NCBI GenBank assembly: GCA_947179485.1
Contig: OX359245.1
Span: forward strand, 60,561,067 to 60,625,066
Length of the DNA: 64,000 nucleotides
Source of the DNA: Allacma fusca
Lineage: Eukaryota; Arthropoda; Collembola; Symphypleona; Sminthuridae
Direction of reading: 5' to 3'
The translations under genes and the position numbers were made by a program. The notes under the pieces were generated by a model, which saw only the letters and a program-made list of their open reading frames with translations, did no database searches and had not been told where the DNA came from. How positions within the stretch are numbered: the first letter of the stretch is position 1; the number at the start of each line of letters is the position of its first letter. Positions 6,659 through 28,640 of the stretch are shown in pieces.

Positions 6659-7283
6659 CTACATATAAACGAAAACATTGTTGTGATAATAAATTACTGT
6701 ATGGACGGGAATTCCGTCTTTGCTACAATAATGGTTGCCTGGGTTACACATAAAGTATTTACAGATTACTGGGTCGCCTCCACATTGTCCCATTTCAGAG
6801 TTGACTTCTTGACAGTTTCCAGAACGATTGTTAAATGTGAATTGCAATTGGGTTTACTGTCGAAGGTGTAAGGAGGACAGTGGATATACTTTATTTTTAA
6901 TTGCGGTGATTGGAAAGTATTTAACCTCTTCAATAAAATGTTTGCAGGTGTTGAATATATAGTCTCCGACTGCACAAAAATTTGTCGGAGTGCCTGAGGT
7001 TTTCAATAATGAGTCATTTGTGGATACTTCCTCTGCATGACAGTCCAATTGATCTCATTCCAATTTTTTTCCATTTGGGACAGGCGTCTTCTGGTTGAAG
7101 GCAGGCAGTTGCTCCAGTGTTTAAGCTCCTGGTACACAGGAATTTCATAGTAGGTGTACCACTGATATTTGCATGGTGGAAAATAGATACCATTTTAGGT
7201 TTGGTATATGAGTCAACTTCACTATGTTTTATCATGAGGAAAAGAACGAGCAGTGTTGTTTGACATGTTAGTTTACAAGTCAT
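6659..7283 (-). pseudogene. Env (first glycoprotein) remnant of decayed BEL/Pao element 2
   Basis: Three overlapping minus-strand frames (7283-7014, 7048-6854 and 6847-6659) together match the first-glycoprotein region of the intact polyprotein at 14315-24823. Shared patterns include VGDY followed by a conserved Cys, the EEV segment, and a run of spaced cysteines around GDxVxCxxxxCNP. Frameshifts between the three pieces break it. Upstream on the same strand lies the integrase remnant, with only about 280 bases between them. The identification rests on visible similarity to the intact copy in this window. Confidence 0.85.
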
Positions 7284-7559
7284 GGAAACGCCTTTCGGTA
7301 TTGTTTATGCATAGATTATTACATTTAAGCACGGTAATGTCCAAGTGAGAGCGTCACATACCCAGATGATATTCTTGTGTACATACGCTATAGGAATCAC
7401 GGTTTGTATAGTCAATGCTGGCATATAACACGTGATTATCGGCGTCCTATGGCCTTCCTGACTTTAATCACATGGTATAATATTGCAATATAACATGTAA
7501 TTATAGTTATTATGGGCACCATTATTTTGCAAAAGAATCATCATTACTCAAGGTTATCC

Positions 7560-8216
7560 CCTTAATTGATCTATTGGTAGATTGCACTCCTTAAAGAAGG
7601 ATTTGTAGGCGAATTTTCCCATGCTCCCGTAAGTGTGGTATGATGAACCCCTAACGTTAATCCTCATTGGATCCTTTGGAATTGGCCCAGACGATTGACG
7701 TTGGGGGTGGTCATGTCATCGTCTGGTGTCCACAAAAAGGATGTGCCCACAAGGAAATGAGCGGAGGTAAGAGCTTCAAGATCGAGAGGGTCTGTAGCCA
7801 TTATGGTAAGTGGCCTGGAGTTGACCAATGCTTCAGTGAAGATAAGTAGTAAGTAAGTTTGAAATTTATCATAATTGTATGTAACTTGATCCACAGTTTT
7901 CTTGAGGTAAATCTTGACCAACTTCACGTAAGGTTCCGATACTCCTCTTTGGTGAGGTTCCCTTAGAGGGATGAAGTGTTAGTTTATCTTCTCTAATTGT
8001 ATGTCGGAAAGAATCTTGTCCTGGGCTTCTTGTAATTCCATGAGTGACTCTACTGTCGTATTAATGTAGTTGTTCGCTCCAACAACGTTCCAATAATTTT
8101 CGGAGTATATTGCTGATGGTATAACGTGTCTAGCCATAAATCTGCGTAAAGCAAGACGAAATCCTTGATAGGTCATTGAGCTGACCAGCTCCAGATGTAT
8201 GGCTCTAGATAAAGTA
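7560..8216 (-). pseudogene. Integrase remnant of BEL/Pao element 2
   Basis: Two frames match the integrase of the intact element. The first (8176-7979) carries LALRRFMAR and VGANNYI, and the Asp of the core SDN motif is replaced (SENYWN). The second (7927-7664) carries EALVNSRPLT and DLEALTSAHFLVGTS. A weaker match to the C-terminal integrase-associated segment follows down to about 7560. The piece holding the catalytic Glu is lost at the break between the frames. It is inactive. Confidence 0.9.
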
Positions 8217-8819
8217 GTAAAGATGAGTTAATTTTAAAAATCTTGCGAAGCTTCACTCTTTGTAAAGGAACCAAAGTAGCCAATATTTGTATCCACGACG
8301 ATATATTCTCAAGTTATTGAATAATAGTGCGGGTGGCTGCTTTTTTCATTGCCAAAACGACCTTTTCTCCATTCCAGTTGTAGTAATTTCTTCCAGAGTA
8401 ATGATATTCGGGATTTCATAAATGTTAAGAAAGATGAAAAAGAACTTGTTTTATTGTGAGCAGTAACGGAGATTTGTTATTGTCAGAAAATACATGAGAA
8501 ATTTTATATTGCGAAAACGAATATGTGGGATTCTACCTAATAAAGTGATAACAGTTCATTGAACCTTATGACCGGGAAAGATAAATCCAGAAATAAAAAT
8601 TAAATGGGAATATAGTGGATTAAAGATCCTTGGCCAGGAAAAAAATAATATAATTAAAAAATGGAAAGTAAAAATATAGAAAGAGAACGCATGTGAGCGG
8701 TTCCACTCATCCAATTCCAGAGGAAAACACTCATTGTGTGAGCATCGAGAGGAAACCGCATTGTTCTCTCGTTCTCTCACATAATTACACATAATTTCCT
8801 AACTTTCAATAATAAGTGT
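8217..8819. other. Unassigned interior of decayed element 2
   Basis: By position this should hold RNase H and the integrase zinc region, but I recognise only scattered similarity. A 78-codon minus frame (8556-8792) looks like chance. Confidence 0.4.
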
Positions 8820-9574
8820 GTAGTCTTAGCCGGTGGGTCCATTCCACTATAATTCGTGTGCAGATAGTTCATTAGGAGAAACATCTCTGGAGGCACAGTT
8901 AGGGGATTGTCCTCGTACGTGGTGCTATTGTAAAGATTCGGACTGCTCGTGAATATGTTATATCCTATTGGCTACATAAATTTTCCAGCGAGTAGGGGAT
9001 GATTGTATCCAATGAAGTACTATTATTTATTCCAACCAATAGTGGGAAGGATGGATGGGTACGTTCCAAGTAACACGGACATGGTATACGAGTTGTGCAA
9101 GTAATACCGCACATTGAAGTTCCAGCTTCAGCAGTTGAGTACATTGAGGGGTGCTACACTTGATTTTGCAACCACCAGTCGTGATGTTACCTGGTGATTA
9201 TGTACTCCTCTCATATATACTACTGCGGAGTATGCCTTTTACTAGCTTTGGAGAAACCGTGTAATTCGTAGACATTGTCGTCTACATATTGGAGGTAATA
9301 TGGAATTGGGATGGATTACATAATCATTAAATGGAAGCATAATTAATCCATAATGTTTGGAAGTCTTCGGGGAAACCTTGATCCCATTCAAGTTCTGGTG
9401 TGCAACTACCTCGCATTAGGATTTTTGCTTCGATTGTTGTTGGAGACAACCATCCTATTGGGTGGTATATTTTTGATATTTCAGATAATTACGTTCGTTC
9501 TGTGTGAGATTTCTCCCATTAAATTGTGCCGTAGAAGGAAAAAAATCTGTTTCGGGGTTCCAGCGAAGCCTTAG
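8820..9574 (+). pseudogene. Inverted Env-like remnant (glycoprotein with membrane anchor)
   Basis: On the plus strand, opposite to the surrounding pol remnants, frames broken by stops contain Cys-rich stretches (LGDCPRTWCYCKDSDCS near 8890-8960 and IEGCYT near 9135-9165) that recall the Cys patterns of the intact Env. A frame at 9353-9574 has a long hydrophobic segment followed by a basic CRRRKK tail, as expected for a glycoprotein anchor and cytoplasmic tail. It is probably a piece of another element inserted in inverse orientation. The similarity is weak, so alternatives remain open. Confidence 0.4.
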
Positions 9575-9830
9575 CATCTACGCAGTATCGGATTCGTCGA
9601 TGCTTATAGTAGCTCCATTGTTCTAATGCAAAATGAGCCGATGAGAGCATCTGGATAAATTGATTCTGTAGTTCTAGGGCGGCAGCTTCGTCCTTCACTA
9701 AAGCTATGAGGTCATTCATATAGAAGTTCTGGTGAACTGTTTCGTCGGCTTTCAGGTAATTGCCCCTTTCGTCTTCCGCTACTTGACTTGCGGCAAGTCC
9801 GAAAAGGCGCTGGAGAGGTCCCAAATGGAA
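9519..9830 (-). pseudogene. Reverse transcriptase palm remnant of element 2
   Basis: The frame 9824-9519 aligns with the RT palm of the intact copy. The YMDD catalytic box is present as YMND, and FIQMLSSAHFALEQWS matches LIQMLATAHFSLRKWS. The loss of one catalytic Asp and the short frame show that it is dead. Confidence 0.9.
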
Positions 9831-9927
9831 TTACTGTCATTCGGAAGCTCTCCAGGGGTTGGGATGGCGTAGGTCTCTAAAAAATGCGTTTGAAATGTCT
9901 GGCATCTGGATCCACTGAAATCTGATG

Positions 9928-10344
9928 TTACATTTTTTTGATGTCACCCACTAATGCTACTTCTCGTTCACGGAAGCGGAGTAATTGGTCAAAAAGTTTT
10001 AGTTCCACTGTCGGCCAGCGGACATGATATTTACCATTATCTAACCGGACCGTATTAATCTTGTAATGGTTTTCGCAGATCTGCTCCTGTTCCATTAATG
10101 CCTTAGGCAAAGGAATTTCTTCAATATGCCAGAATTTTTCTATATCAAATTCAATTTGTTTAGACAGGTACACAACAAGATCTTGATTGACACGTTGAGC
10201 TGGAATGTCTCCAAAATCAGTGGAGTACGCCAAAGGGCGGATGAGAATTGGAGTCTGAATCACCAATCGAATATAACATTTCTTGAATGGCGCTTCCGAA
10301 TCAACTATCAATAATATATTGTTGTATCTGAGGTTTGTGCTCAT
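9928..10344 (-). pseudogene. Protease C-terminal / RT N-terminal remnant of element 2
   Basis: The 138-codon frame matches the stretch of the intact polyprotein between the protease and the RT. Landmarks are AYSTDFG, FDIEKFWxIE, CENHY and VRWP. It then jumps straight to LFDQLLRFREREVALVGDIKxM, which in the intact copy lies over 100 residues further on. It therefore carries an internal deletion as well as flanking breaks. Confidence 0.9.
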
Positions 10345-11829
10345 GGACTACAGTTTCTCGGTGGTTAGCGTTGAGGTTTCTGGATGATGGACTGAAACTC
10401 AGTATATGAAAATGGTTCATTGCCAATGTGGTTGAACCTCCTGGCTATATAACGTTTGAGGGTTTCTAAAAACAGGGTGTTGGAATCCTATTGTATATTT
10501 TCTTCGAGTTTTTTTCCAGATCACTTGTTTAAATCTGCAAAAAATGAACTCAAAATCTTTTTATGTTTAGGGTGCTCGAAAGTTGAAGTTTTTCGGGAGT
10601 TAAGCCCGAAAATCTGTTGAAGAAGTGGCGTCAAATTTAAAGTTGAGTCGCTTCACATAGGTTTTGTGAATGTTTCTGAGAGACCTTGAGGTGATTGTCC
10701 TGATATTCTCTCAGTCCATCGCAATCTTGAAGACATATAAGACCTACGATTAAATGAACGCCTGCGTCTAGCACTCACCTATTTGAATCATTATACGTCT
10801 GTTTTAAGAAGTATATGCCTCTTCTGCGTTTGTGCTTCCATAGTATTGCAGATTCTGCTTTATCACCTTGGGAAATTTGTTGTTCACTTCCCAATAAACA
10901 GATGTAATATTGTTGTTTCGAATATTCTAAGTCTCAACATAACTTATAAATTTGATCGATTGCGGGATGTTTAATTCCAGGGATTTTTGGGTTAGCTGGG
11001 ATGTATTTAGCTAGAGCTTAAAATTCGAACATGGGCAAATAATCAGTTCTTAAAGGTTAACTTGCCGACTAAGTTCACCAGTTTTATCATGAATAATTGA
11101 TATTTGGTTTATTTTAAGTTTACAATTCAAGGGATAATGTTAATTATCTTAACTATAAACTATTATGACCTACTATACCAGTTTCATTGGTTAAACGTAG
11201 TTACAATTCAACGGATAATTTAAAATTATCTTGGATAAGATATTGAAGTTTGTTCTAAATTATGTAAGCGTTATATTTCAAAGGTGGAATGGTATTAATG
11301 AACGTAATCACAAATAAGAAAATGTTTGAAATTGTATGTGGTTGTATTAAGGCAAACAATGCTAATTCCCAACTCATTTCACTGTTCAGTGTTCATGTAC
11401 AATTCCAGTTCCTGATGAGTAATTACCTTGTCAATAACATCTACAACTTTGTAACAACCATGAACCAATTTTTAAATTAATGTGTATATTATAAATATAT
11501 TATTGTGTTCCACAATTCGGACATTAAAGATGGACATTCAGGTTTTAAACAAGTGTTGAATTTGTATAACATATGTATGTATTCTGTCTTGTATTCCTTT
11601 TTTTGTTTTTACGGTTCTTACTTCTGATTAATGTGGTGCTTGTATCTTTGAATATAATTTAATGCTATTTTCTAACACACCTATTAATTTTCTACTATGC
11701 TGTAATATTTTAGTGAATGTGATTTTTGCGTGTCCTCTAGAACTTTTAAAATGCCCTAAACTCATGAGTACAATGCAGTTATGGACTGTATATAGGAGAT
11801 ATGAACCTTTATTGTTTCGTTACATGATC
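10345..11829. other. Eroded gag region of element 2, no readable gene
   Basis: In the intact relative about 4.3 kb of gag and protease would separate the leader frames from the preceding remnant; here only 1.5 kb remains. An Arg/Ser-rich minus-strand stretch near 10620-10770 may be gag. Plus-strand frames at 10783-10974, 11289-11480 and 11662-11904 have no recognisable features. Confidence 0.4.
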
Positions 11830-12473: not shown

Positions 12474-12920
12474 TGTTGGTATAACATAAAATAAAAATGA
12501 TGAATGAAGGAATAAGATAAATTCCAATTTGACTTTATTTAACTGTTTGATTTCAAAGATGAACTTGTACTGTTTTAAAGTGTTTATGATTATCCTATTT
12601 ATAATAAATCGGGAATCAATAATATTTGATAGAATATTCCAGAAAGGAAAAAGTAGAGTTAGGTATAGGAAATTCCTAACCAAAAAATGCGGGTTGGGAA
12701 TTTCCGGTGAATTCCGGGTCTGATTATTACAGTAATATTTCATACATTTAATTCTGTTGGAACACTTTATTCCATTGTATAATAAGGAAAAAACTTAACA
12801 TATAGTTTTTATTTTGGAGAGTTCCGAATAAGGTTTTATTGTACGCTTAGCTTCTACTTGTTGATTATAGTGGACTTGCGATAGCGGTTTCCTGTTGTCA
12901 CAGGAAACTTGAAATCAAAG
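12474..12920 (-). mobile_element. 3' part of the LTR of element 2 (split by element 1)
   Basis: Read on the minus strand this ends CCAACA just before the element 2 primer-binding site. Its first 116 bases (12920-12805) are duplicated at 27178-27293, on the far side of element 1. Joining the two halves in thought gives an LTR of about 670 bp running from TGTTGTG at 27515. It carries an AATAAA polyadenylation-type signal in the duplicated part. Confidence 0.7.
12805..12920. repeat. 116-bp flanking duplication, copy 1 (left of element 1)
   Basis: It is identical to 27178-27293 except for one C/T difference that I can see by eye. It directly abuts the broken leader end of element 1 at 12921. BEL/Pao integrases normally leave only a few bases of target duplication, so this is abnormally long. 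Confidence 0.9.
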
Positions 12921-13654
12921 GTCTGTATATCTACTTGCATGTATCTACTATACCAATCAAAGTGGAAGTGAAATTCCTCTTCATGGGACAAAATATATTG
13001 TTCTAGTCGATTACTTTCAGAACGTGCTCGTATACGAGCGTCTTCAGTTGTCAAGGGATGTTGTTGTGCAAATACCAGCTGCTGTTGTATAGAGTCGAGG
13101 AGTCGATCGATGTCTAACGCGAATAATTGATAATAGTCGGGACGAACCATAGATGCGGGTGAAACCCTATCGATGAATCTGTCGGAGCACAGCCCTCGGG
13201 GGCACAAAAGTTGATCTGACCTGGTGGCCCTCTGGGACCACAGAGTTGAAGTAACGGATGTAGGGCCCGTGACGGAGGCGGTGCGGCGGCAAAACGTCCG
13301 ATGAAATCGGCGGGGAAGGCGGCAAATGACGTCCGGGAGAGGATGAGAAGAAACCGGGTATCGGCGGTTATGACGGCAGCGAGCGACGAACCGGGTAGCG
13401 GCAGATACGGGCCAGAAGTTCGAGAGCAGAATGGCATGAAGAGCCGAGACGTCACAGAGGGCAGCTGAACGGGGCGCGTCGGGGGGCAGGACCGTTTCGG
13501 CGGCAGCAACTGGGATCCCTCTGCACGGAGTACAAAATAGGATGAAATCCGGGCGGCGGCAAGGAGACCGGGTAGAGACCGGGTAGAGACCGGGTAGAGA
13601 CCGGGTAGAGACCGAGTAGAGACCGGGTAGATTTCCTTAAGGGGAGCCACTTAT
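12921..13654 (-). other. Extra partial copy of the element 1 leader beyond its 3' LTR
   Basis: This stretch follows the 3' LTR and nearly duplicates 26010-26731, the internal leader that follows the 5' LTR. It includes the primer-binding site, the 11-bp repeats and the GC-rich section. It stops abruptly at 12921, in the middle of a reading frame that continues in the other copy. It is thus internal sequence stuck on the wrong end, not part of an LTR. Frames of 178 and 117 codons here are duplicates of those in the 5' leader. Confidence 0.85.
13565..13632. repeat. 11-bp tandem repeat (GAGACCGGGTA), six units
   Basis: Six tandem units, one with a single change, lie just inside the primer-binding site of the leader copy. 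The homologous array in the 5' leader (about 26650-26708) has five units, a one-unit difference between otherwise nearly identical copies. Confidence 0.9.
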
Positions 13655-14100
13655 TGCGGAATGCAATGATGAGGAAAATAAACCTTAAACTTTGTTGAGT
13701 GAAAGTAATGTTTATTTATTGAGTGCCAGAATTGTACTAAATTTTACATTAAATATTCGGGGTATTTATACTAAATTCTATGGGAAAATAATTAATTAGT
13801 AATCTAGAAGAAACCACATTAAAATCATTTTTGTAAAGAGATAGAATATCTTGTGGTTAGAAGAAAACCACAAATATAATTATTCTTATTCCAAAAGGTA
13901 AGAGACCACAAATTAGTGGAATTAATCATTGTTTAGATAATTATGTAAAGAGAATAATTAACCGCAATTTAGATTATACGTAATAATTTAAAGGAAATAT
14001 TATGTTAATTAGGAGGACAAAAACATTTAATTAAAAGGAAAGAAACATTTAATTAATTGTGCTGACGTGGGTTAGTTTGTCTCTACTCTGAGACACAACA
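13655..14100 (-). mobile_element. 3' LTR of element 1 (446 bp)
   Basis: Read on the minus strand it runs TGTTGTGTCTCAG ... CATTCCGCA and matches 26732-27177 with, by eye, three substitutions in 446 bases. This indicates a recent insertion. Its right end is set by the primer-binding-like TGGCTCCCCTTAAGG after a short spacer, paralleling the better-defined site of element 2. AATAAA signals lie in its second half. An AG-rich tract (AAGGCGGGCAG) precedes it as a possible polypurine tract. Confidence 0.85.
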
Positions 14101-14318: not shown

Positions 14319-15674
14319 ATTTTTAAATATTGTAAATGACCTGTAATTTGTAACTTAACAGAATTACTTGGACATTTTAGCACACATGACATAACTATGT
14401 CCGGGGTGTTTAGCTTGATGATGATATTATGGATGCTAGTGTCTTGGTTTAGTGATATCGGTATGAAGAACCCTGCATTCGGACACTCTAGACTTGCCAC
14501 TGTTTCTCCTTTATCAAAGTTTCCTTCGATCGTGAGGGTCGCTCCTGCAATACAGGAGTAACATCCTTCCAGTTTCACAAAATTCGCATTACAGGTTACA
14601 TCCTGAACCAATTTGGTCAATTGGTAATGTTCTGTACTTATTTGGATCTCTAATAAGGTACTAGTGGAGGATTCAAATGTGATGTCTTCTCCGTGTGATA
14701 CTAATACACCGTCTTGTAATTTCAGAGGAAGCGGGTTGATTTTCATCAATTTTTCCGGGTTGATTAATTCGGAGGTACACTTTACTCCATCCAGATTAGC
14801 GGTTGCTTGAATTAGATGCATGCTGCCAAGACAATTTCTGCTGACGATTTGAGCATCCTTTGGTGTGTCACATTGAATCTCACCCAGTTTGTTTAGTGAT
14901 AGTTCCTGTCTTTCATTGCATGGGGCAAGGGCTGCTTGTTTACCTTTGGTAAGTATACATTGTTCCAGTAATGGTATTGGTGGTTCCGATATGGAGATTA
15001 ACGTAAAGTTGATGTTATCGATGGTTTGGCTTAGTCCAACCTGGATACGCGTTTCGTTCTGGATTGTTCGATTGCCCATCTTGAGTGTGACTAATAGTTT
15101 AGTGGAGAATTTCCATTCAGGGCAATTGTATACGCCGTATACTTCATTCGTGGGGTTGGTGAGCCATGAACGATAATAACAGCAATCCCGGGTTAATGGA
15201 AAGGGGCACCTGGGATGGCGTAGATCAGCACAAAAAGAACATCGTAAATGGTTGTTGGATCCCTTAAATGCCTTTACAGTGTCGTTGATTCCAAAGTTTT
15301 GACAATTAAAGCCGTGGCATTCTGCGTCACTCCACAAATTGTAGCACAGAAATGAAGATTGGCAATTGGCTACTGCCCGAGGTGCGTAATACAGTAATTG
15401 CTTTATAGAACTTACTGCCACGGATTTTGTTTCAACTGTAATAGATCCTATGAGTTCATTATTATGTAAATCTTCTATCCGGAAACACGAATGTTGTCCT
15501 AGAGGGCTTATTGCCAACCGTGTGTTGATACGTAAGGCACAGTTGATGTGATTGTCCTTATCGATATGACATTCCTTAGAACTGGCAGTCATTCCTGCGA
15601 AATTGGTACAACTGTAACTTACGGGTATTAAAAGTGCAATGATCAAAACTAGGCTTATTTGGATTATCCGGGGA
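14315..15674 (-). other. Polyprotein domain: second glycoprotein (Gc-like, fusion-type)
   Basis: Residues about 3053-3502. A hydrophobic signal-like segment (IIQISLVLIIALLIPVSYS, ending near 3072) is followed by a Cys-rich ectodomain beginning CTNFAGM. The ectodomain is rich in paired cysteines and glycosylation sequons. The arrangement matches the phlebovirus-type glycoproteins known in Env-bearing BEL/Pao elements (Tas of Ascaris and Cer7 of Caenorhabditis). No transmembrane anchor is present in this frame before the stop; the anchor is in the -1 frame. The class II fusion assignment is inferred from Cys layout and order and needs a profile search. Confidence 0.7.
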
Positions 15675-18600
15675 AGATAAGCTCTTCGTCGTTCTGATCG
15701 TCTCCGTTCATTTATTGTTTCTACCGTTGGATGATAGGGGTTGGGAACGTCGTGGAGTACAATGTCCTCTGTGATGTCGTTGCTGGATGTGCTGATGTGT
15801 TGGTAGTTTTTCTTGTTCCTTCTTCGAAGATACATTCTGAGACAGAGTCTTGCGGGCCAGCAGAGATACCAGTATATAGTCTTCACAATCCGTGATAGGA
15901 ATATCAAAGCAGTAAATCCAATAACAAGGAGGATGCCCAAGGAAGACAACATGAGCCAGTGTATCCATGTATAACAGGACAAATTGGCAAACTGTTCTGT
16001 ACATAGGTAACAGGAGATAAGATCACAAATCGGTAGTCGCGGACAGTTGATATTTTTAATAGATGGTACGTCGAAATTAGCAAACCAAATTTCCACATGG
16101 GTTACACCAGTGGCTGCGAGCATATTCCTTGTGAATGTAATATCCGTTACCACAGATGTAGGTATGGTGGATATAAACTCGGGGTTTTTGAGGACCTTTA
16201 TGTATTTAGGGACCTTTCCGTTGGTTTTGATTTGAACGCCATGTGTGGTACATTCGATTTCACAACCGTCGCAGTCAAACACATTGTGGGTTAGACTCCG
16301 ATCTTCCTTCCGGGTAAGGAGGTAGAGATGTCCCCAACATCTTGGCATAATCTCGCCTTGAGCAGTCTGGATTTTGTAGATATCCGATGTCGGGTTGTAG
16401 GTACAGTTACAGTTGGGTTGTGTTGTTGGATTACAATCAAAGTGTCGACAAAATACGTCGTCCCCGACGCAGTCTTCCGTCTCGCAATTGACTCTCACAC
16501 AATCTCCTTGACACCAGTACGATGCGAGTAGTCCTAATTGAGGTTCTTGACGGGTTTGTAATGCGCGTAACGGGTAGATGTGGTTGTTGAACATGACTAT
16601 AGGGACGAAATTTACTTCTTCCACAAAGTGTCGACAATGGCGAATGGTGTAGTCTCCGACAGAACATAAGTCGGCGCGGACTTCAGGGTGATTTAGAAGG
16701 GTTATATTGAGACTTGAAGTGGTGTCTTGACATTCCAGTTGGTCAAGATTTATATCTTGTGTTTTAATACATGTATCAGTGGGGGTGATACAGCCAGTGG
16801 CTTCCGCATTGACTTCTTGTAATTTTGGACACTTGAATTGTCTGGAACATAACGTTCCGTTCGGCAGTAACTTGAACCAGTTAGCACTTCTTGTACATTG
16901 GGGAATTTCGTGATGTGTAGGCCAAGAGATTGTACATGGAGGAGAAATAGCTTCTAGCCTTGGGTTGGCGTTGTGGTTTCCCAGGGCTGATCCGAGTAGA
17001 CACAAGAAAACCATAGTAGTGGTAAACCAGGGCAAGTTAATTCGAAATAATCGGCGGTTACAGTAACGGAATAACAGTTTTTTGTACTCTCGTCGATAAC
17101 TGGGATTCATCATGATGTGTACTATCAGATTGATGCATGGCAGACTCCAGGTGAAGGCTTCGATACCTATTTTAGTTTCATAACTTAGTTGTCGGTATGT
17201 GTAAGCGGTACCGATGGCTAGTGCTGGGAGATAGCACGCAAGAAACGAGAAGAATATAATCATAACACTTTTCGTGACGTGTCGTTCAAGTTCGGTCGAA
17301 GTGGCCCAGATAGAACCATTTACGCTCCTTGTGTGTGTCCTAACATACCGTAGGATGGAGAGATAGCATACCAGAATGGTTAGCATGGGTCCTGCTATTT
17401 CCAATGATAGCAATATTAACCGAGGGTTTCGTGAGGAAACCATTCCACAGGACTTGGGTGGACTTTGAAAAATCCCAAATTGTCCCCAGATACCTAGAGT
17501 CGTAGGTATCATCATGCCATAGCTGAATATCCAGATAATGGTCAGGTAGATTCCCGTTTTACGGTATGTAAAACATCTGTTGTAAAGATGGGAATATACT
17601 ATCCTAATGGTACGATTGATAGTAATGGCCATGATGTTGACAATAGAGCAGGTGACATTACTGTAGAATAGATAACAGTATCCTTGACAAAATGAAAGGG
17701 TGATAATCCAATCTGGGTAGAGATGTCTTGCTATTGTTAAGGGCATGGTAATGCTACTGAACAATAGATCTGAGATACTGAGACTAATGATAAACCACGT
17801 CATGGTTAGACTTCGTAATTCGGACTTTTGGCAGAGTGTTACGATGTTGAGTAAATGTCCGAGAGAACCTATGATTGCTAAGGTGATACTGTAGATTAAC
17901 AGAAACATAGGTGGGCGTGTAAAATTGACGGTGGAGATGAATGGGTTATTACGGTTGGCCTGAACTACATTTGTCATACATATGCAAAGAAATGCTATGA
18001 TCCATTGTATAGCTGTAGTGGTGGTGTTAGCTCTTGTCACTAACACGGGTTTGAGTTCGGAAGTTTTCTTATTCTCTGTCTGGGTGGTGGATTCCGTTGA
18101 ACTATATGACTCTCCGTCATATATTGGAAGTGGTGCAATTTTTGTAATTGGTCTGATGACTTCCTTGGTTACCTTCTTTGTCATGCCCTTATCGTTCTTG
18201 TAGGTTCCTGATACTTCCAAGGTAGTAACTCGTGTGAGACCATCTTTACCGGGATGCGTAGTTTTGACTCGTCCTAATTTCCATTCCAGCGGTTGAGTCT
18301 GGTCGTCTACTATAAGCACTAGATCTCCAATTTTGATATTTGGAGTTTCTGTATTCCATTTTCCTCGCTTCTGCAAGGAAGTGAGATATTCGTCTTGCCA
18401 TCTTTCCCAAAGATCAGTGGAGCGTCGCTGAAGTAGTTGAAAATGGTCCAGTTTATTCAACTTTAGATGTGTCAATGAATGTTCCGGAATCCAAAGTAAG
18501 GAGGTTCCGACCAAAAAGTGGGCCGGAGTTAACGCTTCCAGATCATGTGGATCCGAAGATATTGGAGTCAGAGGTCTTGAATTGACAAGGGCTTCGATGA

Positions 18601-21600
18601 AAGCTAAGATTGTTTCAATTTGTTCCCAGTTGTAGGCTGGTTCGATCATTATCTTCTTTAGATAAGTTTTCACTAATTTGACACAAGCTTCCCACACCAC
18701 ACCCTGATGAGGTGTTCGTGGAGGATTGAAATGCCAATAGATTGTTTCTAATTGTTGATCGGGTAAGATCTTATCAGAGGCATCTTGGAGTTCATTTAGA
18801 GTTTCTGCTGTAGAGGTCAGGTAATTATTGGCACCGACAAAGTTTAGACCGTTATCGGAATAAACGTCTGTTGGTCGCCCACGGCGAGACATGAATCGAC
18901 GTAAAGCCAATAAGAATCCTTCGTAGGTCATTGAGCTGACTAATTCCAAGTGTATGGCTCTGGAAGTAAGGCAAGTAAATAAGCAAATCCAGACCTTAAA
19001 TCTGGTAGTCTTGTTGCCACAGAAGTTCTTGAGTTCAAATGGGCCGGCGTAGTCTGTCCCAACATGAAGAAATGCGCGGGCTTGATTCACTCGAAAGTTT
19101 GGAAGGGGTGGCATTAACTGTTGTAATGGTTTGGCCCGGAAACGGAAGCATAGCATGCATTTGTGGAGTACCGTCTTGATAGCACGGATGTGCCCATGAA
19201 TCCAAAAACGTTGTCGCAAAAAATTCAGCGTTGTCTGGACACCACTGTGTCCCAGGGACTCATGGCAATGACGGATGATTGCTTGCACAATGGGGTGACG
19301 TCCTGGTAATAGGATCGGATGTTTTGTGTTGTAGGATAGGTTTGCATGTTTGAGTCGTCCGCCAACGCGCAAAATGCCCATAGAATCCATGAAGAGGCAC
19401 AAAGTTTTTAGTTGTCGATCTTGCTTCGTATTAGTCTTTGTTCCTTGAATTTCTTGGATGATGTCACTGTATACCTCGTTTTGAAGTAAGGAGACCAACT
19501 GATCTTCCGCCTGAAGAATTTCGAGTGGGGAAGGGCGGATGGACCAAGTTGTCTGGAAGCTGTGACGATTTTTGATACGTATTAGGAGAGTAAATACTGC
19601 TCGTATCTTCTTCCAAGATGAAATCTGCACTAAGCTACTTATTACAGATTTCGTAGGGGCTTGTTGAATAGATAACACCTGATGTTTTTCTTCTGTGCTG
19701 CTGGCAGGAGTAGGAGCGTCCTGTCGAAAGACTGGAATGTTGTAAATTGATTGAGACAGGAAGGCTGGACCGTTCCACCAAAGCGCGTGGTCCTGAAGTT
19801 CTTCCGGTGGAATGCCACGGGATGCGCAGTCCGCGGGATTCTGTTCACTGGGCACATGATGCCATTGTTCCACTGTAGAAACATCATGTATTTGCTGTAC
19901 TCTGTTTGCCACGTATATTTTCCATTTGGATGGTTTAGAATAAATCCAATGTAAGGCAATGCTGGAGTCGGTCCAGTAATGAACACTTGCGAGAGGTATA
20001 TTCCATGTCCGTTTGACATGATCCATGAGCTGAGCTAGAAGAACAGCTCCTTGAAGTTCCAATCGTGGAATAGTTACAGTTTTTACTGGGGCCACTCGTG
20101 ATTTTCTGACCACTAGTTGTATCTGCACATTCTGGTTAGATACTTCTCTCAAGTAAACGGCGGCCGCATAAGCCTTCTCGGAGGCATCAGCAAACCCGTG
20201 TAATTCCCAGTGCCAAGTATGGTCGTAATGTAGACACCTGGGAATACGGATGGTTTCAAGGTATCGTAAGTTCTTGGCATAAGAAAGCCAAGTCTCCAAA
20301 ACATCCTCGGTTAAGGGCTCGTCCCAATCCAAGTGCTTCAGCCATGTTGCCTGCATTAATATTTTTGCTCTTACGATTGTAGGGGCAAGCCAACCCAATG
20401 GGTCATAGATTTTGCTAATTGAACTTAGCATAGTCCTCTTCGTGTGGACTATGGATAGATCCAAGTTCAGCGTGAAGTAGAATTGGTCTGAGGATGGACT
20501 CCATTTGAGTCCCAGAGTCTTAAGGGTGTCGGATTCATCAATTTTCATTGGAAGCTGAGTTTCCCGATATTCCTTTGGTAAGGCTGCTAGGACCCGGGAC
20601 GAGTTGCTGCTCCATTTTCGTAGAGAAAAATGAGCAGTTGCTAACATCTGAATTAGCTGTGACTGAACCTCGAGAGCATCTTCTTCGGAGTCCTGACTGG
20701 TCATGTAGTCGTCCATGTAGAAATCCTCAGTCACTGCGTGGGCGCCTATAGGGAAACGATCCATTTCGTCTTTGGCTACTTGTAGTAACGTACGACAGGC
20801 GATGAATGGAGCTGGCGAGATGCCAAAAGCGACCATTTTCATGCGGTAGGATTTTAGTGGTTCCGAAGGATGCTTTCTCCAAATGATCCTACTAAAATCC
20901 TGTTCGTCCGGGTGGACAGCGATTTGGCGATACATGGCCTTAATGTCGGCCACCAAGGCTATTTTCCGTAGCCGAAATTTTAATAAGTGGTCAAACAAGG
21001 TAGGTTGTATAGTTGGTCCAGGAAGGAGAATTTCATTCAAGGAAATCCGATGAGATGTCTTCGCGGAGGCGTCGAATACTACCCGAAGTTTGGTTGACGT
21101 ACTTGATTCCTTGATTACTGCATGATGTGGCATGTAGTAAGATTTCCTGGAGTTGATCTGATCCTGAGGGACCTCCTCCATCTGGTCCAGGTCTAGGTAT
21201 TCCTGTAATTGTTCGTGGTAGGAACTCATTGCGACAGGATTCTTCAGGATCTTTCGTTCGACGGAGATCCAGCGGTTAGTAGCCATGTCCTTAGAATTTC
21301 CTAATTCGGGATGATTGGGTCGAAATGGCCAACGGACTTGGTATCTACCGTTGGGTAACCTAATGGTATTTTGTGAGTAATGGTTCTCACAGAATTGATC
21401 ATCCTCGTGGAGGAGTGGGACATTTGGCAGGTTTTCAATGTTCCAGAATTTTTCCATGTCAAAATTCAGTTGGTCCATGGGGTAGATCGTACAGACTCTT
21501 TGTTGCGTGGGGGCTGGTACTGCTCCCATTATGATGTAACCGAAATCCGTGGAGTAAGCACTGGGGAGGAAATGTCTCCCCTTGATTCGCTTAGCTCGCA

Positions 21601-24600
21601 TTATCCGATCGATAATGGAGCTACCCAAAAGAAGGTCGATTGGGCCTGGTGTATTGAAGTTAGGATCTGCCAATGGAAGTTTGGCGGTATGATCCCATTG
21701 CTGGACTTCAATTGGATGAGTTGGCAAATCTGCCGCGATCTGCGTGAGTACGTAAGGTTCTATCATTAGCGCCTTATCCGGGTAGACTAATGAACGTATC
21801 CAGATGGTAACTTGTCCGAGCACAGGAAGATTATGTCCTCCTGCAACGGAAAATTTCTCTGGTCCTTGTCGGAGTGGTAATTTCAGTCGGTTGACTATTG
21901 CCTCCGTTATGAAGGAATTTTGAGCTCCTGTATCCAATAAGCTTCTTACGACCATGGAGAAGCCCTTGTGTTCTACTGCTACGAGGGCGGTGGGTAAGAG
22001 TCCGGTTTCTGCGGCGACCTTGTCCGTGGTCTGGTGAAGAATCGTATTAACACTTGGGCTTCGTCTAAATCCTTCAGATTCAGGTCGATGGAGACTGGTG
22101 TGGTGTTTTTTCTGACACACTGAGCATGTCTTGGTGGATACACATGTATTGGCATGATGTGATCCTAGGCAGTTAAAGCATCTCTTTGCTTCCTTAACCC
22201 AATCACGTCGTTTGGAGATTTCCAATCTGTTATAGGCGTCGCAGCTGTAGACTCCATGTTTCGTATTACCACAATAGATACATGGACGGACTAGACGTCT
22301 AAAGGGAATGGATTTTGTCCTTCTTCCTGGTGATGAGGTTTCTCTTGAAGAACTTCTATTCCGGGATGACCAGGATGACCTTTTTACCGTGGTAAGTACC
22401 TTTTTCTTTGGTTTAGGTGACTTACTTTGGGTACCCTGGCGAGATCTAGATGTTCGGCCAGTAGATGTTGATCGGGAATCCGTGGAAGTGTAGCCTTCTG
22501 TATCCGATACAGCCATCATAACCACCTTATTGTGGTTATCTCGACGTGATTGATGATTCACCCTCTTGGTAATAGCAGCTGTAGCACTTTTATGTCGGAT
22601 TTCCTTAGTAAGGCCAAGGTTTTTGGCCTTATTTTCAAGGAAAGTAATACAAACGTCCAGAGCTGGAACTTCGCTATTTTCCAGTGACTGGTTAAATTCG
22701 TTGATTGTTTTGGTATCCAAACGTGCCATAATAAAATGAAGGTACAGAATCTCTGCTTCATTCAGATCCGGAATTTGTTGGAGCTGTGACCTGGTGGTCC
22801 TTACTGTACTGATGAGTTTGTGGAGACCAGAGTCCGTTTGAGACATCAGTGGAGGTAGATCTAGCAGGGGTCGAATTGCGCTGTGGGCAGTTTCCCGTGG
22901 GCTATCGTACCTGTCCGTGACTCTTTTCCAAGCGATTGACCAATTAATGTCTGTGACTATTAAATCTGTTATAGTTTGACTTGCTTCTCCGTCACTTAAT
23001 GCCTCTATTAGGAGACGCATTTTCTCGGAAGGTGAGTACATATTGGATTGAGCTACCAATAAATTGAACTCGGTGCGGAACGGAGGCCATTCACGATGTG
23101 CACCAAGAAATTTTGGTACTGAGACCTTAGGCACCTTGAGGCGTGAACCTCCCATATTCGGGTTGAGAGTTTTACGGAGTTCTGTAACCTCGGCAAAACA
23201 CTTAAAGTGTTTAACCTCCAGGTTTCTCTGTGTCTTCAGTGCTTGAGTTAACGCATCTGATGGCGTTGCTGAAGGGTCGTTCTCAAAGTGTTGATAGCAG
23301 CTTGTGTGTAGACCTCTAATAACGGAGCTCATATCCTTGAGCTCAGGTTCGAGAATCTCTACTTGTGTCGGAGTGAGCAGCGTATTGTCTGCTCGGTGGA
23401 AAATTAACATCCGGTTAATTTCCGTTATGCGATCGTCCAGAGCGTTCGTCTGGGCCGCATGTTCTGGTTGCGCCATTGTTAAAGTTTGAGCACTGGGGGG
23501 CTTCGAAAACTTGTGTGGCGGCTTGTGAGGCGGTTGAGGAGGGGAAGGTGTTCTTTTATGAGAGGCACTAGTTTCAGACGGGGATTGTGTCTGTTGAAAA
23601 ACTTGTGACGTACCTTGACCTTCGCTAGTTGAGGTAGGTCCGGATCCTTTTGGCAGCGGATTGGATCCTTTCACTGGTTGGACCTTTGGAATGCCAGTAG
23701 CTACTGGCCCTTTTGATTCGTCCTCGTCTGACGAACTGTAATTGAGTTCACTGGGAGAACTCTTGCCACTAAGTCGTTTAGTGGGCTTACCTTGAGGTGA
23801 CCCGGTTTCGGATTCTTCGGTATCAGCTAAGGTTTCAGCGTCCGAACTGGAGCCGGATGTGATGGGATTGCTATCTTGATCCACGAAAAGATAGGTGTCC
23901 CGAACTGAACTGCCTCTCCCGCTGTCTAGGAGTTGTCGATGGAGTTCAGTTTCCCGTAGAAGGTCCTTGGCGCCTTCGGAGGGTTGAGAAATATCGTCTG
24001 CGGTGAATGAGTGGAACTCTGATGGTTCCTCAAGTAACGATTGAAATTCTTCTGCAACCGTTAAGTCCCCGGTTGCTATATTACGTAATTGAGGTTGCTG
24101 TTCTGATTCTGCTGCGTCTGCTTTCCCGGCGGGTGAGTGTAAGTAGATGAACCGTTTTAGATAACTTACGAACTCAGGATAGTCGTTGTCGTCGATAATA
24201 ACATCCAAGTTTGTTTTAAACACTTTCTTGAACTTTTTGAATATGTATTCCAAATCCTCGTCACTTAATGGGTTGTCGAAATTATAGTCTTGAGGTAGAT
24301 CTAGGTCATATGCCCTTGAATCCTGGGAGTCGAATCCGACGTGGAACTTAAAGTTTCGTCGGCGGGCGAGTTCCTTGGAAAGCGCTCGTTCCACTGATTC
24401 TGATGTAACCTTAGGAGATCGTCCAGACAAGGGTTTTCTCGACCGTAGTCGAGAAGCGATGGGAGTTGAGGATACAAGAGAAGAACTCACAAGAAAGGGA
24501 TTAGGGGCTGTTGGCCTATCTATTGGTAGAGACCTTGCCTTCCTAACTTCTATTTGTTTGTTTATCCAACGTGCTATGTTAGGCACAGCACGGAGTTTTA

Positions 24601-24823: not shown

Positions 24824-25001
24824 GGATTTGGGTATGGGAAGGAGTCAAAATAAAAAGGGCTGATATAACCATGAGTAGGATAATAATGGAAAAGAGTAGT
24901 TGACTAATGATAAATGATAACATGTAATTAATAATTTTTATGACTATGAACGTAACTGAATTAATACATATTTTATTTTTGAAAATAAAGATATCGATTA
25001 T
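24824..25001 (-). promoter_or_regulatory. Short spacer upstream of the polyprotein start
   Basis: These 178 AT-rich bases separate the third small frame from the polyprotein ATG. No acceptor-like AG stands just before the ATG, so the polyprotein probably starts at its own ATG. The homologous spacer is seen in the truncated relative (28052-28264). Confidence 0.4.
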
Positions 25002-25403
25002 TTAATGGTTGGTCCACAATGTTTCTGCTAGAACCATGTGTGGAGGTGGTGGCAGTTGGTCTAAAGTAATCCTGATTATTTTGAGTAATCGTTGTGCCTT
25101 TTTAAATTGTTTTAACAATATCTTACTTTCTAGGGGTGGTGTGTTTTCTTTAAGTTTTTGAATGTGAGCTTTATTAGATCGAAGTGTTTTGTAGAAAATT
25201 CTGTACCTTTGTTGGTTGTGTCGATTTAAGGTTGGAGTGTTTTCTAAATTATCCCTGAATTCTTGCAGTAGTTCGCACAATTTGTAGATGTTATCCCAGC
25301 TGCTCCGGGAAATGGAGGGCCAAAATATGTCGGGGGGAACGTATAGGAAGACGGGATGTAATTGCGCTAGAACAGGTATCGCACGTGCGTTCATGTATGG
25401 CAC
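25002..25403 (-). CDS. Upstream small frame C of element 1 (conserved, unknown function)
   Basis: This is a 133-codon frame ending 178 bases before the polyprotein start. The listed first codon is GTG; the first in-frame ATG is at 25394. The frame is in fact open further upstream to about 25461, overlapping frame B in the -1 phase. It is rich in Leu/Lys/Arg with likely helices and has a PPPPHM motif near the end. A frame-broken relative at 28262-28640 preserves FLYVPPD, SWDNxYxLCELL and SNRHN, so the protein sequence was under selection. It matches no domain I recognise; a Gag accessory or RNA-binding role is only a guess. Confidence 0.65.
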   Translation of the reverse strand: MPYMNARAIPVLAQLHPVFLYVPPDIFWPSISRSSWDNIYKLCELLQEFRDNLENTPTLNRHNQQRYRIFYKTLRSNKAHIQKLKENTPPLESKILLKQFKKAQRLLKIIRITLDQLPPPPHMVLAETLWTNH

Positions 25404-25420
25404 GATCCTGGCCCAATGTT

Positions 25421-25777
25421 TTACATAGACCGGCGTTCTTGATTGGTCAACCGAATTTCCTGATCATGTAGTAATTCTAGCAGTTTGTCTAGTTTCGATT
25501 TAAAATTATATCGATAATATGATGGGCATTCCCTTATCAATTTAGATTCATACATACATAAAACATCCCCAATTTGTTGTTTGAATTTTTGAAATGATAC
25601 GATTTCACTACGTATATCGGCTAGAGAATTATTTCCGGAGTTATTAAACAATTCAATTTGTTCTTTAGCACAAATGATTAAAGTACTCAAATGCCTAATT
25701 GCAGTACTGTAAAATTCTGCTGGAGTTTGATCTTGAGCTTGCTTAGATGCCCAGTTCATTAAGTAACAAATGTTCAA
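25421..25777 (-). CDS. Upstream small frame B of element 1 (likely second exon)
   Basis: The frame of about 118 codons is predicted to be helical (AIRHLSTLIICAKEQIELF and KQQIGDVLCMYESKL). It has no ATG at its first codon, and an internal ATG lies seven codons in. A good 3' splice site (TTCAG|TTTC) at 25782-25784 would join it in frame to frame A through a 120-bp intron (25782-25901) whose donor is CG|GTAAAT. Function unknown. Splicing is inferred from sequence only. Confidence 0.5.
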   Translation of the reverse strand: MNICYLMNWASKQAQDQTPAEFYSTAIRHLSTLIICAKEQIELFNNSGNNSLADIRSEIVSFQKFKQQIGDVLCMYESKLIRECPSYYRYNFKSKLDKLLELLHDQEIRLTNQERRSM

Positions 25778-25897
25778 GAAACTGAACTAATATATAATAT
25801 ATTTGATTTTACAATAGTTTCTATTGAAATAAATGGTTTATTTTTAAGAATTCGATTTATATACGATTTTAATAAGGTTTTGAATGAATACTGATAT

Positions 25898-26650
25898 TTA
25901 CCGAATGCCGTTTACAGCTTGTATAAAATCCCAATCCCAATTATATCTATTGTCGGGGTCAGCTATCTTCTCTAATGTAAGTTGTATTTCGATGCAAGAG
26001 TCGATTTTGGTCTGTATATCTACTTGCATGTATCTACTATACCAATCAAAGTGGAAGTGAAATTCCTCTTCGTGGGACAAAATATATTGTTCTAGTCGAT
26101 TACTTTCAGAACGTGCTCGTATACGAGCGTCTTCAGTTGTCAAGGGATGTTGTTGTGCAAATACCAGCTGCTGTTGTATAGAGTCGAGGAGTCGATCGAT
26201 GTCTAACGCGAATAATTGATAATAGTCGGGACGAACCACAGATGCGGGTGAAACCCTATCGATGAATCTGTCGGAGCACAGCCCTCGGGGGCACAAAAGT
26301 TGATCTGACCTGGTGGCCCTCTGGGACCACAGAGTTGAAGTAACGGATGTAGGGCCCGTGACGGAGGCGGTGCGGCGGCAAAACGTCCGATGAAATCGGC
26401 GGGGAAGGCGGCAAATGACGTCCGGGAGAGGATGAGAAGAAACCGGGTATCGGCAGTTATGACGGCAGCGAGCGACGAACCGGGTAGCGGCAGATACGGG
26501 CCAGAAGTTCGAGAGCAGAATGGCATGAAGAGCCGAGACGTCACAGAGGGCAGCTGAACGGGGCGCGTCGGGGGCAGGACCGTTTCGGCGGCAGCAACTG
26601 GGATCCCTCTGCACGGAGTACAAAATAGGATGAAATCCGGGCGGCGGCAA
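25898..26650 (-). CDS. Upstream frame A of element 1 (leader frame, start uncertain)
   Basis: An open frame of 250 codons without a clear ATG; the only Met in its well-structured half is internal. The first part is Arg/Pro/Cys-rich and lies in the GC-rich leader, so it may be non-coding. The last ~100 codons (LFALDIDRLLDSIQQQLVFA, then an HEEEFHFHFDW motif) look like real protein and are echoed in the diverged element 2 leader at 11830-12156. It ends at a good 5' splice site. Either splicing from an upstream start or non-AUG initiation would be needed. Confidence 0.4.
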   Translation of the reverse strand: MPPPGFHPILYSVQRDPSCCRRNGPAPDAPRSAALCDVSALHAILLSNFWPVSAATRFVARCRHNCRYPVSSHPLPDVICRLPRRFHRTFCRRTASVTGPTSVTSTLWSQRATRSDQLLCPRGLCSDRFIDRVSPASVVRPDYYQLFALDIDRLLDSIQQQLVFAQQHPLTTEDARIRARSESNRLEQYILSHEEEFHFHFDWYSRYMQVDIQTKIDSCIEIQLTLEKIADPDNRYNWDWDFIQAVNGIR

Positions 26651-26708
26651 GGAGACCGGGTAGAGACCGGGTAGAGACCGGGTAGAGACCGAGTAGAGAC
26701 CGGGTAGA
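26650..26708. repeat. 11-bp tandem repeat (GAGACCGGGTA), five units
   Basis: The leader-side counterpart of the six-unit array at 13565-13632. It lies directly downstream, on the minus strand, of the primer-binding site and marks the start of a leader section that is far more GC-rich than its surroundings. Confidence 0.9.
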
Positions 26709-26711
26709 TTT

Positions 26712-26726
26712 CCTTAAGGGGAGCCA
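26712..26726 (-). promoter_or_regulatory. Candidate primer-binding site of element 1
   Basis: On the minus strand TGGCTCCCCTTAAGG follows the LTR end CATTCCGCA after five bases. It shares TGGCTCCC and the spacing with the clearer element 2 site. It is probably the tRNA primer site for minus-strand DNA synthesis, but its tRNA match is shorter. Confidence 0.55.
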
Positions 26727-26731
26727 CTTAT

Positions 26732-27177
26732 TGCGGAATGCAATGATGAGGAAAATAAACCTTAAACTTTGTTGAGTGAAAGTAATGTTTATTTATTGAG
26801 TGCCAGAATTGTACTAAATTTTACATTAAATATTCGGGGTATTTATACTAAATTCTATGGGAAAATAATTAATTAGTAATCTAGAAGAAACCACATTAAA
26901 ATCATTTTTGTAAAGAGATAGAATATCTTGTGGTTAGAAGAAAACCACAAATATAATTATTCTTATTCCAAAAGGTAAGAGACCACAAATTAGTGGAATT
27001 AATCATTGTTTAGATAATTATGTAAAGAGACTAATTAACCGCAATTTAGATTATACGTAATAATTTAAAGGAAAGATTATGTTAATTAGGAGGACAAAAA
27101 CATTTAATTAAAAGGAAAGAAACATTTAATTAATTGTGCTGACGTGGCTTAGTTTGTCTCTACTCTGAGACACAACA
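26732..27177 (-). mobile_element. 5' LTR of element 1 (446 bp)
   Basis: It matches the 3' LTR (13655-14100) with about three visible substitutions. It begins TGTTGTGTCTCAG on the minus strand, at the exact edge of the 116-bp flanking repeat. It should drive transcription leftward through the leader, small frames and polyprotein. From LTR to LTR the element is about 13.5 kb, very large for BEL/Pao. Confidence 0.88.
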
Positions 27178-27293
27178 GTTTTTATTTTGGAGAGTTCCGA
27201 ATAAGGTTTTATTGTACGCTTAGCTTCTATTTGTTGATTATAGTGGACTTGCGATAGCGGTTTCCTGTTGTCACAGGAAACTTGAAATCAAAG
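27178..27293. repeat. 116-bp flanking duplication, copy 2 (right of element 1)
   Basis: Direct repeat of 12805-12920 with one visible substitution. It abuts the TG end of the 5' LTR. Together with the left copy it brackets a 14,257-bp insertion. Confidence 0.9.
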
Positions 27294-27515: not shown

Positions 27516-27534
27516 TAATTATAATTGATCTAGT

Positions 27535-28051
27535 TGATATGCTTTTGAGTTCTGGGAGTCTATCCCGACGTGAAACTTAAAGTTGCGTCGGCGGGCGAGT
27601 TCCTTGGAAAGAGCTCGTTCCACTGATTCTCCTGGAACCTTAGGAGATAGGCAGGACAAGGGTTTTTTCGACCTAGTTGAGAAGCAATGGGAGTTGAATA
27701 GACAAGAGAGGAACTCACAATAATAGGATTAGTGGCTGTACCCCTATTTATCGTAAGAGACCTTACCTTCCTAACTTCTATTTGTTTGTTTATCCAGCGT
27801 GCCATGTTAGGCACAACACGGAGTTTTAGGTAGGTTTCTAATTTCGTTGTAGCTTCTAATAATCTATTTGTTTCTGGGATATTATTAGCCTTCGTGGCTA
27901 ATTCGAGACCAAATAATGACAAATAATAGTTTTTTAACCAAACCTGTATGTCATCTGAGGTTTTATATAAACCTCCAGTGACTGGGTCTAACTCAGTAGG
28001 AAGTCGGGTTTCAGGATCTTTGTATGAGGAAGGATCCTCGAATTCGAACAT
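27535..28051 (-). pseudogene. Truncated gag N-terminus of an older element-1 relative
   Basis: Starting at the conserved ATG (28051), the frame is close to residues 1-165 of the intact polyprotein (MFEFEDPSSYKDPETR identical). It then shifts frame and is cut near 27535, where the element 2 LTR begins. This suggests that element 2 inserted into this older copy. It is non-functional. Confidence 0.9.
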
Positions 28052-28261
28052 GGAGTTGGGTATGGGAACGAGTAAAAATATAAAAAAATAAAAATATGCT
28101 AATAATTGAAAGGAGTAATTGACTAATGATAAATGGCAACATGTAGCTATTTTTAGGTGCCAATAAAATAATAATTGTTTAAGAATATAAACGTACCTGA
28201 ATTAATACATGTTTATTTGTAAAAAGAAAAATACCGATTAATTGTTTGGGGGAGTCTTGTT

Positions 28262-28640
28262 TTTATTTAATGGTGGGGTCCACAATGTTTCTGCTGGAAC
28301 CATGTGTGGAGTTGGTGGCGGTTCTTTGTATTGGTGTATAGTTATCCTGATTGTTTTAAGCAATCGTTGTTCCTTTTTTAGTTGTTTTAATAATATTATA
28401 CTTTCCAGGGGGTGAGTTCTCCTTGAGTGTTTGGATGTGGTCCTTAATGGACTGGCGGTTTTTGTAGTAAGCCCTGTACTTTTAATGGTTGTGTCGGTTC
28501 GAGGTCGGAGTGTTTAATAATAAATCCCTGAATTTCAGCAGTAGTTCGCACAAATTGTAGAGGTTGTCCCAGCTTCTCCGGGAGTATGAAGACCAAAACG
28601 TGTCGGGCGGAACGTAAAGGAAGTAGGGATGTTAGGCAAT
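28262..28640 (-). pseudogene. Remnant of upstream frame C in the older relative
   Basis: Minus-strand pieces match frame C of element 1 (25002-25403) with stops and frameshifts: FLYVPPD, SWDNxYxLCELL and HIQxLKEN are all retained. The match ends abruptly near 28640, the truncation edge of this copy. Confidence 0.8.

Follow-up and report, generated by a model that had tools for sequence, protein, structure and literature searches.

A Tre1-type class-A GPCR is a selected domain of the Gag-Pol-Env polyprotein in a BEL/Pao clade of the Allacma fusca genome

BEL/Pao elements with a phlebovirus-type Env have been described from nematodes, including Atlas virus and other belpaoviruses (PMC9094657), and GPCR capture is known from herpesviruses (PMC9584139). 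In Drosophila, germ cells require the receptor Tre1 to cross the gut epithelium, and Tre1 also acts when hemocytes extravasate; its NRY and NPIIY motifs both matter (PMC6122984, PMC3848830). Among the matches listed from open-licence PMC papers, no retroelement or retrovirus with a GPCR was found. The receptor described here would take GPCR capture beyond large DNA viruses and into reverse-transcribing elements.

The window, a 64,000-nucleotide stretch of Allacma fusca DNA, holds a BEL/Pao element with paired LTRs and with DUF1759, the reverse transcriptase, Peptidase_A17, and DUF5641 in BEL/Pao order, RVT_1 scoring below its cut-off in a piece that cuts the domain (Table 1). The 3502-aa ORF was cut into pieces and each was searched separately against Pfam; the integrase core rve was absent from the matches at E 0.1 in the pieces searched. 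Its envelope is of phlebovirus type, Gn- and Gc-like domains standing in tandem (Phlebovirus_G1, G2, and G2_C). An earlier note on this DNA had described one continuous frame from Gag through integrase and seven helices into Env, and the ORF is indeed stop-free with its domains in that order. Because the two 449-bp LTRs differ at just 3 positions, the insertion looks young.

Positions 17042 to 17926 are confirmed to encode a complete class-A GPCR, in frame between the integrase C-terminal domain and the phlebovirus-type Gn/Gc envelope. The profile search proposed in the earlier note for residues 2300-2594 gave a strong match to Pfam 7tm_1 (250 residues, E 5.3e-30, 105.2 bits where the cut-off is 30.5), and the best match among solved class-A receptors was melatonin receptor type 1B (E 7.1e-19). 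The class-A landmarks were found as claimed: D2352 in TM2, R2404 at the end of TM3, a Trp in TM4, P2479, CYLP in TM6, and the C2379/C2459 pair. An AlphaFold model of the receptor, built from two sequences only, had a pLDDT of 40, too low for the fold to be read from it. A chance ORF was ruled out by the 7tm_1 match and by the reading frame, which holds no stop in 295 codons where the other five frames hold 10 to 34.

Table 1. Features of the complete and the decayed BEL/Pao element, in window positions
Feature	Position	Strand	Basis
Gag-Pol-GPCR-Env ORF, single and stop-free, 3502 aa	14315..24823	minus	ORF listing; domains from separately searched pieces
DUF1759, Gag region	22748..23110	minus	Pfam, E 1.7e-13
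Asp_protease_2, aspartyl protease	21809..21952	minus	Pfam, E 1.3e-5
RVT_1, reverse transcriptase	20633..20980	minus	Pfam, E 3.8e-6; 27.2 bits, below cut-off 29.6, piece boundary cuts domain
Peptidase_A17 (Pao retrotransposon domain)	19964..20443	minus	Pfam, E 4.3e-53
Integrase_H2C2	19133..19288	minus	Pfam, E 1.2e-10
DUF5641, integrase C-terminal domain	18128..18445	minus	Pfam, E 4.7e-28
Hydrophobic segment, signal-peptide-like, ahead of receptor, residues 2269-2287	17963..18019	minus	Hydropathy
Class-A GPCR, 7 TM, residues 2300-2594	17042..17926	minus	7tm_1, landmarks, solved-receptor matches, tree
Hydrophobic segment, Env-signal-like, directly after receptor, residues 2597-2615	16979..17035	minus	Hydropathy
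Env Gn-like, Phlebovirus_G1	15800..16504	minus	Pfam, E 4.1e-21
Env Gc-like fusion protein, Phlebovirus_G2 and G2_C	14333..15610	minus	Pfam, E 2e-58 and 1.1e-7
3' LTR, 449 bp	13652..14100	minus	3 mismatches, 0 gaps to 5' LTR; extent from other copies
5' LTR, 449 bp	26729..27177	minus	LTR pair comparison; extent from other copies
Leader 5' of main ORF, holding other open stretches	24824..26728	minus	ORF listing and search
Older decayed BEL/Pao element	~6740..10695	minus	Gag, RT, integrase, GPCR, and Env fragments in order
GPCR remnants, TM5 and TM6-TM7, between integrase and Env of decayed element	7311..7528	minus	tblastn, E 2.3e-8, 2.3-kb target

Several further features of the window were recorded. 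Beyond the 3' LTR (12804-13651), about 730 bp of this copy's own 5' leader is repeated, and a 117-bp block (1 mismatch) lies on both sides of the whole insertion (27177-27293 on one side), recurring with its left flank at C1:22539223 (97%). Together, the leader repeat and the flanking block are perhaps the trace of an insertion that was aberrant or tandem-derived and produced a target duplication of unusual length. The leader has further open stretches in other frames, namely an ORF at 25898-26650 that extends into the leader copy and about 155 codons near 25000-25450, and splice-like sites were seen by eye; perhaps these stretches serve as accessory exons or as spliced Gag. Close to the insertion on its upstream side (27527-28632) lies a partial relative from the same element family, with Gag and leader only (79 to 88% DNA identity), and an uninterrupted 377-aa ORF at 57149-58282 encodes a 7tm_7 chemosensory receptor (E 4.8e-10). 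The older decayed element is represented by Gag, RT, integrase, and Env fragments that are 37 to 61% identical. Its TM6-TM7 remnant reached E 7e-5 against the masked window, and its receptor remnants were too weak to enter the genome-wide receptor list at E 0.001.

The genome (392.7 Mb, 91 contigs) was then searched for further copies. All 116 receptor candidates were scored, yielding 85 matches at E 0.001 that merged with their neighbors into 68 loci, with receptor copies on six large contigs. An Env match follows the receptor at 43 of the 68; the other 25 comprise 10 taken as host receptors by the absence of integrase and Env matches from the stretches fetched, nine with Env pieces on local inspection, and six fragments (three with integrase). 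Subfamily A, to which the window copy belongs, gave 13 matches at 97 to 100% identity, and the remaining groups were 45 to 48% (B), 38 to 39% (C), and 35 to 36% (D) identical, alongside partial copies. Thus at least four subfamilies carry the receptor, with 35 to 47% receptor identity between them. In A, B, and C, eight receptor loci are part of open frames spanning at least 3000 aa (3509, 3573, 3618, 3411, 3256, 3096, 3069, and 3651); in D the longest receptor-bearing open frame was 2017. Two loci of subfamily A, L009 and L010 (C1:178851-197486), stand in opposite orientation about 15 kb apart near the contig start with identical match statistics, and may be an inverted duplication or an assembly palindrome.

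Scoring 50 of 139 Env candidates gave 58 matches at 47 loci, and at 43 of these 47 a GPCR lies upstream on the same strand, often with a gap of 0 to 75 bases. Receptors were not found at C1:76980146, where an upstream integrase was likewise not found, at C8:51349940, at C9:33731902 (partial Env), or at C8:21535153 (L059). Wherever both neighbors were present at the loci examined, the order was integrase, GPCR, Env. The search suggested in the earlier note for other GPCR-bearing BEL/Pao copies thus returned many, spread over no fewer than four diverged subfamilies within this genome. Confinement of the GPCR to one copy does not fit the 43 of 47 Env loci found that have it upstream (50 of 139 candidates scored), and an assembly join at this locus is made improbable by the independent copies present on six large contigs. 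The many independent copies led us to reject both an assembly join and a unique insertion. The earlier note's reading of the GPCR as a domain within a BEL/Pao Gag-Pol-Env polyprotein holds.

For integrase, 101 of 1283 candidates were scored, a sample biased to close relatives. Within it, 43 of 44 integrases with at least 60% identity have a receptor within 6 kb downstream, compared with none of the 57 at 50% identity or below, and the receptor therefore marks one clade within a larger BEL/Pao population, among the integrases scored. Open frames of 1691 to 1755 aa contain 31 of the 57 distant integrases, and none of the 57 lies in a frame above 1828. These receptor-less relatives, along with the joint travel of GPCR and Env, could also be read as the outcome of an earlier fusion, in which a GPCR joined Gn/Gc in an RNA virus or another element and the pair was then captured together by BEL/Pao. 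We consider that order of events very improbable. Scanning IMG/VR viral contigs by sequence pattern turned up no relatives of the GPCR, the viral-contig scans likewise gave none for Env, and in the tree described below the sister of the element receptors is a gene of the same host.

The Env-bearing locus L059 also bears on the order of acquisition. Its integrase is 60% identical with one internal stop, and a short stretch with one hydrophobic segment takes the GPCR's place (L059 2952-3650), so that the frame stays open from the end of the integrase across a signal-like segment, the one-helix stretch, and a second signal-like segment into Gn. Since L059 lacks the GPCR in an open frame, the receptor is not indispensable, and L059 may represent either a pre-capture state or a reduction. 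Env without GPCR fits Env having come first, which counts against joint capture, its place in the integrase tree being insecure: with four same-genome outgroups L059 was not securely placed, and constraining the ten rows that carry the GPCR to a single clade cost 3.8 lnL (p-AU 0.195). The Env row of L059 sits on a long branch and covers 34% of the columns.

To place the receptor among its relatives, we built a tree of 28 rows, 22 of them element receptors (intact or long pieces), leaving out near-duplicates and broken copies. All 22 fell in one clade (100/97), with the host Tre1-like gene L067 on C5 as its sister (96/91), Moody next, and three other host GPCRs outside; elements, host Tre1-like, and Moody rows were united against those three (100/99). 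Every one of the 22 element rows scored higher against L067 than against either Moody row, and holding the elements with Moody instead of the Tre1-like gene gave p-AU 0.054. The earlier note's placement of the donor in the Tre1/Moody group was thus borne out by phylogeny, the closest gene being the intron-containing L067 and Moody being nearly rejected as donor. L067 reads NRYILIA at TM3, as does Drosophila Tre1 (PMC3848830). It has introns, one of them inside the NRY motif by eye, and the element receptor is intronless. The host Moody gene (L056, C12) has exons 65%, 52%, and 45% identical to Achroia Moody. A third host receptor of the group, L073 (C5:51003000-51004900), is represented by its C-terminal half only and entered a separate C-terminal-half tree of 24 rows, in which L038 and L039 were left out as partial and L043 was dropped. 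That tree was poorly resolved, an outgroup falling among the elements and the element clade not being recovered; in it L073 grouped with Moody (96/98), a grouping of the elements with L067 was not rejected (p 0.60), and a grouping with L073 was (p 0.0175).

A single element clade and an intronless receptor beside an intron-bearing sister gene point to one old capture of a spliced host mRNA from a Tre1-like source, and as far as the tree tells the receptor was probably captured once. Outside this genome, the sole database protein at E 0.001 or below for the GPCR alone, among 980 candidates, was a moody-like protein of the moth Achroia grisella (36% identity over 61% of the query). Neither GPCR nor Env was found within polyprotein-length proteins (707 and 3743 candidates), by a search that needs shared exact words and that distant elements could escape.

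Selection on the receptor was estimated as Nei-Gojobori dN/dS on intact pieces for all 11 receptor pairs. Ten gave 0.04 to 0.19: L031/L032 0.04 (integrase 0.02, Env 0.08, at a dS of 0.8 to 1.7 that is near saturation), L031/L034 0.06, L032/L034 0.14, L033/L035 0.10, L033/L037 0.12, L035/L036 0.10, L036/L037 0.13, L014/L016 0.11, L014/L022 0.10, and L015/L016 0.19. The outlier was the young pair L033/L036, at 0.60 on 9 changes. Pooled pN/pS in subfamily B was 0.19 for the receptor, 0.12 for integrase, and 0.31 for Env; in subfamily A the values were 0.48, 0.84, and 0.29, with little power in this youngest group. Given the low ratios in 10 of 11 pairs, the receptor is, across diverged copies, evidently constrained like the other element genes and kept as a maintained element gene. 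Integrase (11 rows) and Env (10 rows) trees recovered the same four groups, their branching order unsettled in both. Between L033/L036 and L035/L037, integrase synonymous sites are saturated and receptor dS is just 0.25 to 0.33, a difference which suggests that recombination may shuttle the receptor between elements as a module.

The subfamily A ratio, the outlier pair, and degraded motifs in the window's subfamily are what a functionless accidental insertion, or an assembly artefact, might show. Such a passenger is strongly disfavoured by the dN/dS of the other ten pairs, by open frames through the receptor in four subfamilies, by copies on six large contigs, and by the GPCR at 43 of 44 close integrases (101 of 1283 scored), and we regard it as barely tenable. 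Within this genome, a Tre1-type class-A GPCR is a selected domain of a BEL/Pao clade, seated between the integrase C-terminus and Gn/Gc.

Class-A motifs were compared across six receptors from four subfamilies, in which 52 positions are invariant. They include D53, C80, R105, W132, C160, P180, Y188, P234, and N266 (receptor piece P0001 numbering), which we take to be D2.50, C3.25, R3.50, W4.50, the loop-2 Cys, P5.50, Y5.58, P6.50, and N7.49. Positions not conserved were N1.50, replaced by H in the window copy; W6.48, where elements have F or Y and host L067 has F; P7.50 (L, H, or T in elements, L in L067); and Y7.53, which is H in subfamily A only. At TM3 the motif is NRY in B and C, NRL in D, and NRT in A, and at TM7 it is NLLIY, NHLIY, and NTLIY in B, C, and D and NLIVH in A. 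The activation core thus seems mostly kept, subfamily A having drifted.

Motif drift in subfamily A and the existence of L059 keep a structural role under serious consideration, in which the helices are retained as a polytopic leader that sets Gn/Gc topology, chaperones or tethers the envelope, and has no signalling relevance. Phleboviruses have a membrane protein, NSm, N-terminal to Gn in their glycoprotein precursor, the position the receptor occupies in the element, although we know of no class-A GPCR domain in NSm. The receptor stands directly before Gn with hydrophobic segments flanking it, NRY and NPxxY are partly lost in subfamily A, and L059 manages without a GPCR, with a one-helix piece in frame. 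A scaffold would, however, have no obvious need of the nine hallmark positions, R3.50, Y5.58, D2.50, and N7.49 among them, that stay invariant in six receptors from subfamilies 35 to 47% identical, and we judge this role unlikely.

Most likely, cleavage would release the receptor from the polyprotein, and as a membrane protein of its own it would alter the signalling or migration of the producing cells. In an alignment of eight rows covering four subfamilies, inspection by eye showed segments comparable to both flanking hydrophobic ones in B, C, and D as well. With such an arrangement the receptor could lie N-out and Gn in the lumen, with cleavage presumed. Gag-Pol-GPCR-Env would be made as one polyprotein, the segment ahead of the receptor would take the chain into the ER, and a signal peptidase cut would leave a short glycosylated receptor N-terminus outside. 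Seven helices would leave the C-tail cytosolic, which would let the following hydrophobic segment serve as the Env signal, whose cleavage would free Gn-Gc and leave the GPCR as a separate receptor. On the surface of producing cells or on particles, it might then use or mimic host Tre1 signalling and help those cells or particles toward permissive tissue, above all the germline. The whole account, a captured and selected GPCR that is released and works via host Tre1-type signalling toward the germline, seems to us evenly balanced between right and wrong.

Alternatively, the element receptor might act by interference, competing with host Tre1 for ligand or partners or blocking superinfection by related elements that enter through Tre1. 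Its source is a host surface receptor, it is linked to Env, and captured genes are known to cause receptor interference in retroviruses. Binding of Env to Tre1 is hypothetical, however, and the intracellular coupling residues are conserved though a decoy would not need them, making this a doubtful explanation. Returning to a receptor that signals, the role in targeting, signalling, or germline access raised in the earlier note is plausible. A possible form of it, which we hold only tentatively, is that the elements encode their own Tre1-derived migration receptor, a homing receptor beside an entry protein, with which producing cells or particles would be guided through epithelia to the germline. 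Germ cells in flies are steered by receptors of the group to which the nearest host gene belongs, and a Tre1-type receptor beside an entry protein would have obvious use in reaching the germline. If true, the germline route of an env-bearing retroelement becomes testable, as steering the cell versus waiting for inheritance.

Like the GPCRs of herpesviruses and poxviruses, the window element retains a captured host class-A GPCR in a mobile or viral genome. Those are separate genes of large DNA viruses, mostly derived from chemokine receptors, whereas here the receptor is Tre1-type and a polyprotein domain of a reverse-transcribing element; in this one genome it is a selected gene of the whole clade, in step with the envelope. 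Atlas virus and the nematode belpaoviruses share with it a single BEL/Pao Gag-Pol-Env polyprotein with phlebovirus-type GN/GC, but the Atlas polyprotein reaches residue 2828 with the GN-like region from 1909, and the window element has a receptor between integrase and Gn and an arthropod host; the term GPCR was not found in the main text on Atlas virus (PMC9094657). Anakin and other arthropod Pao elements likewise carry a captured viral glycoprotein, in their case from chuviruses, and unlike in the window element a host receptor was not seen in the portion of that account available (PMC7642597). Host Tre1/Moody receptors, as far as the published descriptions available cover them, share with the element receptor NR(Y) at TM3 and a CxLP-like TM6 (PMC8540695, PMC3848830, PMC6122984). 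The element receptor differs from them in being intronless, in lying inside Gag-Pol-Env, and in having two motifs degraded in subfamily A, and its third loop and tail are shorter than those of Achroia Moody.
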